DNA from: Henricia sp. BOLD:AAB3569
Taxonomy: Eukaryota; Echinodermata; Asteroidea; Spinulosida; Echinasteridae
Direction of reading: 5' to 3'
Length of the DNA: 64,000 bases
Assembly (NCBI GenBank): GCA_037783545.1
Contig: JBBELK010000307.1
Coordinates: 372,001-436,000 of the forward strand
Each line of letters starts with the position of its first letter. Position 1 is the first letter of the stretch. Positions 15,310-54,800 of the stretch are shown piece by piece. The notes beneath the pieces are model-generated. The model was given only the letters and a program-made list of their open reading frames with translations. It did not search any database and was not told the origin of the DNA. A program made the translations under genes and the position numbers.

Positions 15310-16510
15310 GCTTATTGTATTGTTGTGATATGGATTTTTTTATAAATACATACGAATGTCTGCGATTCTTTACGATTCCTTACGATGACAGTACAAATCT
15401 ACGACAGCATCTGCGACTTGTTCAGACACATACGAATGTCTGCGATCATGATCATACATTGTGCGATTCATTACGATTCCTTACTATTTGTTATGATTCC
15501 TTACGATGACGCAGTACAAATCTACTGTTACGACATCTGCGGGTTGTTCACAGACAGTCATTTTGTTACAAATCTTAGAAAATGTTAACACTTAATTAGC
15601 GCTCATCGTATTGTAAAGATAAATGCATTTTCAGTATACGAATGCCTGCGATTCCTTACGATTCCTTACAATGACAGTACTAATCAACGACATCTGCGAC
15701 TTGTTCAGATACATACGAATGTCTGCGATCATGATCACACATTGTGCGATTCATTACGATTCCTTACTATTTGTTACGATTCCTTACTATTTGTTACGAT
15801 TCCTTAATATTGGTTATGATTTCTTATGATGACGCAGTACAAATCTACTGTGACGACATCTGCGTGTTGTTCAGACAGTCGATCATTTTGTTACAAATCT
15901 TAGAAAATTGTAACGCTAAGCGCTTATCGTATTGTAACGATAAATGCATTTTCAGTATACGAATGTCTGCGATTCCTTACGATTCCTTACAATGACAGTA
16001 CGAATCAACGACATCTGCGACTTGTTCAGATACATACGAATGTCTGCGATCATGATCACACATTGTGCGATTCATTACGATTCCTTACTATTTGTTACGA
16101 TTCCTTAATATTCGTTATGTTTTCTTACGATGACGCAGTACAAATCTACTGTGACGACATCTGCGTGTTGCAGACAGTCGATCATTTTGTTACAAATCTT
16201 AGAAAATTGTAACGCTTATCGTATTGTAACGATATGCATTTTCAGTATACAAATGTCTGCGATTCATTACGATTCCTTACGATGACAGTGCGAATCTACG
16301 ACATCTGCGACTTGTTCAGAAACATACAAATGTCTGCGATCATGATTACGCATTGTGCGATTCATTACAATTCCTTAAGATTTAGTTACGATGACAGTAC
16401 AAATCAACAACATCTGCGACAAGCCACGACCACTTACGATACTCCATGTCAATCTTCGAAAAGCTGTGTTTTACGTAACCCTCCCACTTTGCGATATATC
16501 GTATAAAAAG
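15310..16510 (+). repeat. Tandem array of a roughly 300-bp unit
   Basis: About four units start near 15355, 15645, 15960 and 16255. Each carries GCGATTCCTTACGATTCC, a block around GACATCTGCGACTTGTTCAG, ATACGAATGTCTGCGATC and ATTTTCAGTATACGAATG. Within units TTACGAT recurs as a short internal repeat. Weaker relatives extend back to about 14640. The open frames here are repeat artefacts. The array lies wholly inside the MULE-like element. Confidence 0.85.
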
Positions 16511-28470: not shown

Positions 28471-28717
28471 GAGCATATCATATTTTGTGATTTAAACAAG
28501 GGTATGAATAATTCTGGACATGAATTTTTTTTATAAATCTGCCAATAAAATACCCCCGAAACAATGCATTTCTTGAAATGTCTCTTGCAGTGATTCTTTC
28601 AGCTGTCTGACACGTTAATATGTAACTTAAGCCAGAAGAAATTCATTCCTCAAAATAATAGCACGATTCAAAGTACTCCGAATTTGCTTATAGGTATACG
28701 AATAACTTTGGGCTTAA

Positions 28718-28849
28718 AGGCACAGGCTCGTCAGCAATGCGCGCCCGCCCAATTCGTGCTCGAAACACGCAGCTCCATGCCTTTGCTATGGAGCTGCGTA
28801 TTGCGTGGCACACATTTGGCGGGCGCGCATTGCCGACGAGCCTGTGCCT
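28718..28849. mobile_element. TTAA-flanked perfect-arm palindrome, copy 1 (132 bp)
   Basis: TTAA sits on each side (28714-28717 and 28850-28853). Arms begin AGGCACAGGCTCGTC and extend through GCGCGCCCGCC to a central ACGCAGCTCCAT hairpin. The same 132-bp palindrome, flipped, lies at 51108-51239. It could be transcribed into a very stable hairpin, but there is no evidence that it is. Confidence 0.95.
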
Positions 28850-29248
28850 TTAACTGTATGTTACACCTCCCCTTTAACTGTGGACCGTTCTTCATTACGG
28901 CGGTTTATGCCCTGGAGCACGTCCATTTACGGCGTTGTGTTACTCGGAGAGTTCACCTCAAATCGCACTTCCCTCAGGCGTCTATAGATTGCCAATTTTC
29001 CCGCCAAATTGCCACGACCCTCTTTTACACAAACCCGCGCCGACGCATGTAGCAACTTGCGCCTTCGATGTTTTTTTTCTCCCTTTTCACGGCTAAACGT
29101 AAAAAGTAAATTTGAGGAAAACTGAATATTGCTAATGCTATATATCGGTTTGCCGAGATTATTTAATGTGATTTTGCTGACAAATGTTCTTGTTGAAAAA
29201 AAGTGTGGGTTAACTCCATATCCGGCCTGTATTGATTTGTCTAAACCC

Positions 29249-39542: not shown

Positions 39543-39864
39543 GGCTGTGAGCATAGAGTGAGCATACCGGTTTGTTTTGCTAGAATTGTTGGCAAAATAA
39601 TCATCGTGGCTGGTTATTTCCCTCAAGGACCTGCGTAGGGGTTATGCCTGACAAGGTTTGGGTGAGTTTTAGGGGGAATTAGTGTGTCACGGTGAGAAAA
39701 TTTGTTAAACGACATCCACGATTTGCGCAACCCAACATGTGCTGTAGTCTTCAAGTTGTTGAAGTTTGCACATAACTGGAAGAAGAAGAAGAAATGACAT
39801 GATTTGTTTTGTCCTGTTTTTGTGATGGCGTGCGCGTGTTCATGTTCTTAATGCTTCTCAGCTC

Positions 39865-40277
39865 GGGGGTCAGACAAGTCGACCGTTGAGACAACTCGAC
39901 TCGAGACAAGTCGACCGTTGAGACAACTCGACCGTTGAGACAACTCGACCGTTGAGACAACTCGACCGTATGTGCGATAAATAGAAAGACAAGTCGACCG
40001 TTGAGACAAGTCGACCGTTGAGACAAGTCAAAGGGGAGAGGTGATGGTGCTTACCCATTCAGTGACACGGCCGTTCTGGTCGACATGTTTTTATTGTTTG
40101 AAAATAAAATATGTTATTTTAATTTCAAAATTTAAGTGTGTCCGCTGAGTTGTCTCAGCGGTCGACTTGTCTCGAGTCGAGTTGTCTCAACGGTCGAGAT
40201 GTCTCAACGATCGAGTTGTCTCAACGGTCGACTTGTCTCAAGTCGAGTTGTCTCAACGGTCGACTTGTCTGACATCC
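39865..40277. mobile_element. Foldback element with minisatellite arms, 8-bp TSD
   Basis: CTCAGCTC flanks both sides (39857-39864 and 40278-40285). Each arm is a tandem array of a 17-bp unit, GAGACAAGTCGACCGTT with CAAG/CAAC variants, in opposite orientations (39870-40031 and 40146-40277). The AT-rich middle has no coding sequence. Drosophila FB and sea urchin TU elements have the same design of inverted arms built from short tandem repeats. Confidence 0.92.
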
Positions 40278-40383
40278 CTCAGCTCTACTGGTGAAAAGAC
40301 CACATCCCAATGAAAAATGATAAAGCAAGAGCTGAGATTATCTTAGCTAGTCTCCACTTATATTGAAAGGTTTACAGTGGACC

Positions 40384-46091: not shown

Positions 46092-46165
46092 GTGCCTTAT
46101 AGCTCAGCTAGTACAGCATCTGTCTAGCGAGTCAGAGGTATCAGGTTCAAATCCTGATTAGGCCC
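46092..46165 (+). repeat. tRNA-like sequence, probable SINE head or tRNA pseudogene
   Basis: 74 nt with A-box-like TAGCTCAGCTAGTA and a consensus B-box GGTTCAAATCC inside a paired T-arm (ATCAG/CTGAT). The acceptor stem pairs at five of seven positions (GTGCCTT with TAGGCCC). The anticodon loop is one base too long and there is no CCA-adjacent discriminator structure I can confirm. Similarity to 30697-30734, including upstream bases, favours a SINE. Confidence 0.6.
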
Positions 46166-49968: not shown

Positions 49969-50410
49969 GTCTAGATATGCCATTTATTTTCGTTATCGAA
50001 CGACAGGTGCGAATTTTGGAACACAGCGACAACACCTTTACAATATCCCACTCTACGCGCCCTCGCTTTCAACGTCCCACCGACTTTACTGCTATTCGCT
50101 AAAGCCGACTTGACAAATGCCAAGTACGCAGCGACATGGAAACGCTGGGAGCTTTGGGAGAACTCCAAGCCTGGCATCAATGCGTTCCCGGCGGAGGCTT
50201 TTCATCTGTCTATCTACCTTGCACACATAGCAACATCTTCGGGAGCCAAGTCGGCAGCCAACGCACTGACAGCAGCCGTTAAGTAGGCACACAACCTGGC
50301 AGGTCTCCCGTCACCAACGGATGACCCTCTATTCAAGACTGCCGTATACAGGGCTACAACCGCAAGCATGAAACCAGAAAGGAGCCAATTACGCCGGACA
50401 TTTTAGAAAA

Positions 50411-51847
50411 TATGAAATTCCAAAACGGACAGGCAAACGTCGTACTTCTGTTTTCAAACGTCGTACTTCAGTTTTCAAACGTCGTAGTTCAACTTTTCAA
50501 ACGTTGTACCTCAGTTTTAAAAGTCGTGGTTCAACTTTTCAAACGTCGTACTTCATTTTTTTAAACGTCGTACTTAAATTTTTCAATCGTTGTGGTTCAA
50601 TTTGTTAAACGTTGTGGTTCAATTTTTCAAACGTCGTGATTCAACTTTCTCGCATCCTGGTTCACCTTTTCAGCAGAATGGATCCACCCATCGCGCGACG
50701 CGATTTAGCGCAGATCGACCGATCGCGCCCAAAAGCCGCCCAAGCTTCCTTGGTCCACTGATGATCTGTATTATGGATGGTTCGTCATCACCATGCAGAT
50801 AGCACACGCGCTATGACAGTTGACCTAGCACACACGTGGCCACACACATTTTAGTGTGAGTGTTACAGATCTGTTAACAGATCTGTTATCTTAATCATAA
50901 TTGTGACCTCAGAACAAACATGTTAACACGACGTGTTAGTACATGTATGTGTTAAAAGTCGTGCGCAGACTGAGAGCGCAGTTCTGCTACGTGTTAGAGT
51001 TAGTGTAACAGATCTGTTAACATATCTGTTGGCTCGGCATCTTCGGAAATGTCAAGTCGGTATAGGGTTCTGCTCGAATTTCAACACTAACACTAACACG
51101 GGCTTAAAGGCACAGGCTCGTCAGCAATGCGCGCCCGCCAAATGTGTGCCACGCAATACGCAGCTCCATAGCGAAGGCATGGAGCTGCGTGTTTCGAGCA
51201 CGAATTTGGCGGGCGCGCATTGCTGACGAGCCTGTGCCTTTAACCACTAAGTGATTGAAATATTCAAAATCTTCACAATCTTCACGGAGCCCAACAAAAG
51301 TCTCAATTGTGAGTAGAATGCAAGATCCAAAACATTTATGAGCTGTGTTAAAACCTAGAGTTGTGACTTTGCACTATGTACAGTGCAGATAATTAACATG
51401 GTCTGTTAACAAGGTGTTAACCTGGATGTTCAGTTAGAGGTCGAGATTAATGCCGTGTTAACAGATCTGTTAACAGATCTAGCTGTTAACATTAACACCT
51501 AACACACACACCGAATTGTGACCTCACCCAATGGATACGGTTATAAACATAGATAGACTGGTTCCTCTAACATTTCTCAGACACGCTAATTATTTGGATA
51601 ATCGCTGGGTCTGGGACTCATACTCTTGTAGCGTTGGGTGGCTTTTGGGCGCGATCGGTGGATCCATTCTGCTGAAAAGTTGAACCAGGATGCGTGAAAG
51701 TTGAACCACGACGTTTGAAAAATTGAAGTACGAAGTTTGAAAAGTTGAACCACGACGTTTGAAAACTGATGTACGACGTTTGAAAACTGAAGTACGACGT
51801 TTGAAAGTTGAAGTACGACGTTTGCATGTCCGTTTTGGAATTCCATA
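50411..51847. mobile_element. Foldback transposon with minisatellite arms, 1437 bp, 6-bp TSD
   Basis: AGAAAA flanks both sides (50405-50410 and 51848-51853). Ends are TATGAAATTCCAAAACGGAC and its inverse. Arms consist of a 21-22-bp unit, CAAACGTCGTACTTCAGTTTT with variants: about ten copies on the left and seven on the right, in opposite orientation. Inside the arms both carry GCAGAATGGATCCACC and GCGCCCAAAAGCC. The middle has several AGATCTGTTAACAGATCT palindromes and a TTAA-type palindrome (51108). It has no transposase. Confidence 0.95.
51108..51239. mobile_element. TTAA-flanked palindrome, copy 2 (132 bp)
   Basis: TTAA at 51104-51107 and 51240-51243. It has the same length and arms as 28718-28849, with the central asymmetric bases reversed, meaning opposite insertion orientation. 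It is nested in the foldback element, so it is the youngest layer here. Confidence 0.95.
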
Positions 51848-52716
51848 AGAAAAACGTTTCACACAATATGGCCACTCTATACTGCAACATTAGCAGATCT
51901 TCGTGTTTTATTTATTTGTTTTGTTAGCTACGCTGCTTTTCTAAGATTTGACGAAATCAGTTCAATTCGGCGTAAAGACTCTTCCTTCTGCAAGATAGCC
52001 TTATCATTTATCTACCGAGATCCAAAACGGATCAACTTAGACAAAGTTCCTACGTCACAGTAGCCAGAACATACAAACCTACGTGTCCTGTAGCCGTAGC
52101 TGTAGCCAAAAGATACCTCAGCGCACTGGGAGACCGGGCTGATTGTGACTTGCATCTCATTCGTAGGCTCACAGCATCAAAAAAAAGGTCCTGTGCCCAC
52201 CTCCCACGGCCTTAGTTACACCAGAACGCAAGATATAGTTCTACATGCACTCGAGCCCTACGTACCGGACGTATCTAAATTTGGCCTGCACAGCTTCCGG
52301 TCTGGCGGTGCGACCGCAGCGTACAACGCCCTTGTGCCTACTAAATGAACTGATTTCAAGGCACGGCAGATGGAAAACGGATAAAGCCCGAAATGCTGAC
52401 ATCAAGCCTGATCACGAAACAACCCTTATTCCTTCAAAATTACTTGGCATATAGATCTTTTATTTAATCAATCCCAAACCCCTTAAATCTTGTAATATAC
52501 CGGGAAAAATGAATGCATCAAGGAAGATGTGCAGTTATACTTGTAAAGTTTGTAAAAGCAGATTCAGTGTTAAGTTTGAGTAAGAATAAACTGAGCGAGC
52601 TCATGTGCTCTGCCCATCTAATTGTTCACCAAAATTAGTTTCTTGTCTCTTTTCTTTTCTGTTGGTTTTTTATTTCCTCACATGAGGAAGATATAAAAAA
52701 ATTAATTAATTTTCTG

Positions 52717-54275: not shown

Positions 54276-54800
54276 ATCGGGGCGCCAATAATTGGCACCC
54301 CTCACTCACTATACATTTACTGTACATAAATAAATAGCGAATTGGGTTTACAAAAACTGCATGTATGTGCTCGGGGCGCCGATTGGCACCTTTCGCGAAC
54401 CATGGCCCACTAAATAGCGAACTGGGTTTATAAAAACAACAATTTTGTGCAAGGGTCGCTGATTGGCACCCCTCGCGGATCAAAGCCCACTGTACAATGA
54501 ATAGCGAACTGGGTTTATAAAAACTACAAGCGTGTGCAAGGGGCGCCGATTGGCACCCCTCTGGAATCATAGCCCACTGTACAATGAATAGCGAACTGGG
54601 TTTATAAAAACTACAAGCATGTGCAAGAGGCGCCGATTGGCACCCCTCTGGAATCATAGCCCACGCGTACTGTACAATAAATAGCGAACTGGGTTTGTAA
54701 AAACTACATGTGCTATGTGGGCGCCGATTGGCACCCCTCGCGAATCCGCGAACTGGCTATAAAAACTGAAAGTGTGTGCAAGTGGTGCCGGGGGACCCCC
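54276..54800 (+). repeat. 87-bp minisatellite, five to six units
   Basis: Units begin near 54332, 54414, 54501, 54588 and 54681. Each contains TAGCGAACTGGGTTTATAAA, TGTGCAAG and the small palindrome GGGGCGCCGATTGGCACCCC. Middle units are nearly identical; outer ones are diverged, as expected for expansion from the centre. Minus-strand frames rich in EGCQSAP are repeat artefacts. Confidence 0.92.

Follow-up and report, generated by a model that had tools for sequence, protein, structure and literature searches.

The recombinase relic and its interruption

The window, that is, the whole 64,000-nucleotide stretch of Henricia sp. DNA that was analysed, contains a relic of a putative Cre-like recombinase gene interrupted by a non-coding element of 1437 bp (50411-51847), which has a copy of AGAAAA on each side. 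The features of the locus are:

49975..50404, + strand: Cre-like recombinase relic, portion to the left of the insertion (approximate outer limit)
50405..50410, no strand: left 6-bp target duplication AGAAAA (a single AGAAAA in the uninterrupted relative C611)
50411..51847, + strand: complete non-autonomous foldback transposon, 1437 bp, without transposase (no transposase match inside)
50411..50448, + strand: left terminal inverted repeat TATGAAATTCCAAAACGGACAGGCAAACGTCGTACTTC, which runs into the first unit
50435..50658, + strand: array of the left arm: 10 units, each 20-22 bp long, and a short inner border; unit core AAACGTCGT..TTCA
50659..50743, + strand: left arm, non-repeated inner part
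50744..51633, + strand: centre of the element, including the nested palindrome 51104-51243
51104..51243, no strand: nested palindromic MITE with TTAA flanks, missing in the sister copy C303 (one TTAA there)
51634..51686, - strand: right arm, non-repeated inner part
51687..51823, - strand: array of the right arm: 6 units, each 21-22 bp long, and a short inner border
51810..51847, - strand: right terminal inverted repeat TATGGAATTCCAAAACGGACATGCAAACGTCGTACTTC, as read on the - strand
51848..51853, no strand: right 6-bp target duplication AGAAAA
51854..52348, + strand: Cre-like recombinase relic, portion to the right of the insertion (approximate outer limit)

The termini are inverted and start TATGRAATTCCAAAACGGACAKGC..; the two ends read TATGAAATTCCAAAACGGACAGGC.. 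and, on the opposite strand, TATGGAATTCCAAAACGGACATGC.., the left one having TATGA rather than TATGG and the right one TATGG. The original prediction of inverted ends and of AGAAAA duplicated on both sides is confirmed to the base, its span being that of the element plus both target copies. With the element and one AGAAAA removed, the reading is locally open over the join (..KEPITPDILEKRFTQYGHS..), and the matching uninterrupted relative at C611 reads ..KEPVTPDILEKLFTQYGYS... The joined flanks match C611:660609-661106 over 503/506 bases (90% identity), straight through the join, and C611 has one AGAAAA and an open Cre-like recombinase frame through the insertion point. This relative, by spanning the site, supports the proposal that the interrupted gene maps a foldback transposon with minisatellite arms exactly. 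The further claim, that excision restores a colinear recombinase frame, holds across the join, where the reading is open and matches C611, but not elsewhere in the relic, which has a stop and frameshifts away from the join. Because of these lesions, the interrupted gene would not be intact even without the element; only C611 is open over the stretch read.

That the recombinase is Cre-like is suggested by the C611 relative, whose matches to Cre are weak. All 17 of the 17 PDB sequences matched by the 154 residues of this relative are Cre or Tre (E 0.0014-0.023), and its comparison with phage proteins gave 21 records, with seven Cre or Cre-fusion proteins and one hypothetical protein among the matches listed (E 0.2-0.9). 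Neither the recombinase pieces nor the C611 relative matched a Pfam or NCBIfam family; one window piece had no phage match, and one, compared alone with PDB, had only an unrelated match (E 0.45).

The palindromic TTAA-flanked MITE nested in the element (51104-51243) has a second copy in the window at 28701-28854, 95% identical to the first. At this position only one TTAA is present in C303, the sister copy; therefore, the MITE joined the foldback after the window copy and C303 diverged, or C303 lost it cleanly.

Several other repeats lie in the window. A further foldback (39865-40277), unrelated to the first, also has minisatellite arms: it has a 17-bp unit, AGACAAGTCGACCGTTG, in inverted arrays, the ends GGGGGTCAGAC / GGATGTCAGAC, and an 8-bp duplication, CTCAGCTC, at 39857-39864 and 40278-40285; its unit was found in no other locus at up to two mismatches among the family and rva_4 loci examined. 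Tandem arrays of units of about 87 bp and of 290-321 bp occur at 54333-54746 and 15470-16392, respectively, and a tRNA-like match (Rfam tRNA, 33.3 bits) at 46093-46165, where ARAGORN makes no call.

Copies in the genome and their target sites

The window's own assembly (740.7 Mb) was searched with a terminus pattern of 23 bases, beginning with TATGR and with up to three mismatches allowed, which gave 72 + 73 = 145 matches versus 1 + 2 = 3 for the reversed control. Among the 100 matches listed, TATGG starts 92 termini as judged by eye, the pattern itself having asked for TATGR. Because one insertion can be present in the assembly as several sister copies, whose flanks are about 84-99% alike (C307/C303; C151/C168; C564/C720; C329/C46/C665/C666; C92/C161), insertion sites were counted by flank, by eye, and the 28 terminus pairs examined (16 + 2 + 10) reduce to 23 distinct sites.

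The 6-bp duplication is exact at 11 of the 23 sites (C307, C52, C564, C329, C92, C108, C221, C64:336k, C229:1174k, C46:6279k and C60), agrees in 5/6 bases at five (C151, C936, C376, C2 and C64:2917k), is offset by one or two bases at two (C147, with six identical bases shifted by two, and C229:191k, where 6/7 bases agree), and is weak or absent at five (C186, with 4/6, and C169, C861:319k, C475 and C161:618k, which agree in fewer bases and have no duplication). Among the 14 sites first tallied, seven have an exact 6-bp duplication and none has an exact match at lengths of 3-5 or 7-11 bp; pairing left sides with the right sides of other sites in this set gave 0/182 exact matches and 2/182 at 5/6. 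The expectation of several copies with 6-bp duplications is thus borne out.

Uninterrupted relatives, the empty sites that had been anticipated, were present among the loci examined for 7 of the 12 sites tried (the window and 6 of 11 others), two of the seven being weak. The relative of C936 is 93% identical over 294 bp with the same six bases; C151 has relatives at six or more loci (75-91% over about 205-235 bp in the six listed, one of them with the exact right-hand copy, CTATTG); that of C108 is 86% identical over 107 bp with a target differing by one base; and that of C52 is 88% identical over 76 bp with the same six bases. Two relatives are weak: that of C564 is 80% identical over 80 bp with a single base difference, and that of C376, which lies at a locus edge, is 91% identical over 54 bp with a different target two bases longer. 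None was found among these loci for C92, C329, C147 and C229, and a candidate for C221 was dropped, being the right flank of the C221 site itself. The insertions at C151, C52 and C108 sit inside other dispersed repeats. The window element is a real non-coding mobile element with mirror-image tandem-repeat arms, one of a genome-wide family, and precise insertion with a 6-bp target duplication and TATGG..CCATA-type ends is shown.

Structure of the arm arrays

Tandem Repeats Finder reports 10.0 copies of a 22-bp unit on the left of the window element and 6.1 copies of a 21-bp unit on the right, in arrays that are inverted relative to each other. Self-match within each array peaks at lags of 21 and 22 (lags 15-29 tested), and the two arms align with a score of 230 versus at most 29 among 200 mononucleotide shuffles, all in agreement with the original description of both arms as tandem arrays of a 21-22-bp unit. 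The family has the long inverted arms, composed largely of tandem short repeats, that define foldback elements.

The arms were tallied at 12 sites (20 arms; four arms without the inner border motif were excluded, and C169 and C861:319k are left out), with a detector that accepts up to four mismatches to the unit core and thereby inflates the apparent conservation of the core. Each arm carries 5-24 units; of the 178 steps between units, 169 measure 21 bp (104 steps) or 22 bp (65 steps). Two types of unit account for 120 and 63 of the 198 units, with 15 others; the outermost unit is of the GTACTTC type in 19/20 arms and the innermost of the GTGGTTC type in 16/20. The inverted arrays vary in their number of 21/22-bp units between copies and also between sister copies of one insertion, as shown by the units per arm of C46 and C665 (16/9 versus 18/10) and of C151 and C168 (9/9 versus 15/5).

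The arrays might be an ordinary satellite or minisatellite that forms an inverted pair by chance, with no mobile element present, but this is exceedingly improbable. Although unit arrays are dispersed through the genome, they keep company with termini: a 48-base array probe (up to two mismatches, genome-wide) gave 61 matches versus none for the control, of which 54 are no more than 600 bp away from a listed terminus, four lie 1.0-2.5 kb from one in what was taken as the same element (C303, C328 and C666), and the remaining three, in two places, come after termini identified by direct reading. All 61 belong, or very probably belong, to terminus-bearing elements, and free satellite arrays of the unit, which would have spoken against a transposon, were not found in the whole genome at this stringency. 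This association of arrays with termini, together with uninterrupted relatives that have one target copy, ruled out a satellite origin of the whole element. Two unit strings and one terminus string were absent from the literature searched.

Superfamily, mobilisation and comparison with known elements

In complete IS3EU families the termini are always TA..TA and the TSDs usually 6 bp long, and GingerRoot elements have 6-bp TSDs and mostly TA..TA ends (PMC10045372, excerpt); IS3EU is likewise described with TAYGG..CCRTA ends and 6-bp TSDs (PMC12730594, excerpt). The TATGG..CCATA ends of the family together with its 6-bp duplications (exact at 11/23 sites and 5/6 at a further 5/23) match this published signature of a minor superfamily, and therefore a superfamily does fit, which corrects the earlier view that a 6-bp target suits none of the standard ones. 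The element is most likely, with a probability of about 0.75, a non-autonomous cut-and-paste DNA transposon of foldback design that belongs to IS3EU/GingerRoot and is mobilised in trans.

Transposase genes of this type are present in the genome. The rva_4 domain (PF24764), which we take to be the IS3EU-type transposase core, has 53 matches, compared with none in 14 control genomes. Five rva_4 proteins were compared with NCBIfam, where IS481 models match four of the five and IS3 transposase models all five (E 2.4e-17 to 0.0043, with no match reaching its curated cut-off). No transposase was found by tblastn in 248 kb of family loci: of three matches at E<=1, none falls in the transposase core, and the best (L032) is to the tail of an ORF outside the transposase stretch. 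When the 100 listed termini (of 145) were paired facing inward, 0/53 rva_4 matches fell between them, so that the full-length relative with a transposase that had been hoped for did not emerge from either search. Nine rva_4 loci have no family terminus, and only weak candidates for a TA..TA inverted end with a duplication, within flanks of about 1-3 kb. The longer copies C168 (3.7 kb), C221 (3.6 kb) and C861:319k (3.5 kb) contain no transposase match, and C2, where two family termini stand 14.3 kb apart at 831225-845504 (5/6 duplication), has no rva_4 match. C169, with 5.8 kb between its termini, was considered as an autonomous copy and rejected, having no duplication and no transposase match and containing another minisatellite. 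Because no transposase was found in the family or between the listed termini, the probable link to IS3EU is drawn from the ends and the duplication length. The TATGA at the left end of the window copy, and the five sites whose duplication is weak or absent, also count against it.

An undescribed superfamily, or another with duplications of about 6 bp that shares TATGG ends by chance, is an unlikely source of the family. Dada has target duplications of about 6 bp. Polinton has a 6-bp duplication as well (PMC10045372, excerpt), and no autonomous partner was found in the family loci or between the 100 listed termini; against this, both published features of IS3EU, the ends and the duplication length, occur together in the family, and the genome has IS3EU-type transposase genes. 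Less likely still is a Mutator-superfamily foldback, or a P-superfamily one such as Galileo, with an atypical duplication. The arm design does resemble those of Tetris and Galileo, and most foldbacks seem to belong to Mutator (PMC4079207, excerpt), but the duplication is 6 bp rather than the 8-10 bp of Tetris, 0/14 sites have an exact match at 7-11 bp, a range that includes the approximately 8-10 bp of Mutator, and the element ends fit IS3EU instead.

If the family belongs to IS3EU/GingerRoot, a DDE transposase of that group, supplied in trans, would cut the ends and join them across a 6-bp stagger; the ends, the duplication and the absence of coding sequence argue for such cut-and-paste mobilisation. 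More tentatively, the arrays may be rows of predicted transposase-binding sites two helical turns apart, with the outer unit type (GTACTTC, 21 bp) beside the end and the inner type (GTGGTTC, 22 bp) farther in, and they may expand and contract via slippage or unequal exchange while mobility is kept. A binding role is suggested by the 21-22-bp spacing, the ordered unit types, the overlap of terminus and first unit, and the precedent of Galileo, whose transposase is reported to bind tandem repeats in long inverted repeats (PMC3688188, excerpt). A bolder reading, possible rather than probable, is that IS3EU evolved the foldback design independently and that selection has shaped the arms into a polar code of transposase-binding sites, in which outer units are set by the cut ends, inner units at the inner edge and spacing at two turns, with the number free to vary between.

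Most foldbacks have so far been assigned to Mutator, Galileo (P) being an exception (PMC4079207, excerpt). A family with IS3EU ends would mean that the foldback design arises in another DDE lineage, and the design may therefore owe its recurrence to some general advantage that multi-site ends confer. The natural variants, with 5-24 units per arm, sister copies with different arms, and empty sites, make the role of the arm arrays testable. No foldback IS3EU was reported in the literature searched; among the papers listed, only PMC8268682, seen as an excerpt, contains both words, "foldback" occurring there in the title of a reference. Separately, at L064 (C829) an IS3EU-type transposase frame is immediately preceded, on its upstream side, by a long inverted minisatellite (1778-2230), and L065 has a related array (67-69% identity).

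Like the family described here, the sea urchin TU and Drosophila FB elements have arms of short tandem units, but their duplication lengths differ. IS3EU/GingerRoot elements share with it the TA..TA (TAYGG..CCRTA) ends and 6-bp duplications (PMC10045372 and PMC12730594, excerpts), and rva_4-type transposases similar to IS3/IS481 are present in this genome, whereas the family differs in its 5-24 tandem 21/22-bp units per arm and in that its transposase was not found in the loci and terminus pairs searched. The Crassostrea gigas repeats CgiSat35 and CgiSat47 are also tandem repeats annotated as DNA/IS3EU, but have satellite units of 690 and 129 bp, with no foldback described in the excerpt (PMC8268682). 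Tetris of Drosophila virilis is likewise a non-autonomous foldback with tandem repeats in inverted arms, for which no autonomous partner was found, but it has an arm unit of about 220 bp and 8-10-bp duplications, is assigned to Mutator by its authors, and has units that also form free satellite arrays (PMC4079207, excerpt), whereas in the present family the 61 array matches accompany elements. Galileo, a Drosophila element of another superfamily (P) with a THAP-domain transposase, shares the long, internally repetitive inverted repeats, and its arm repeats contain several binding sites for its THAP domain (PMC3688188, excerpt).
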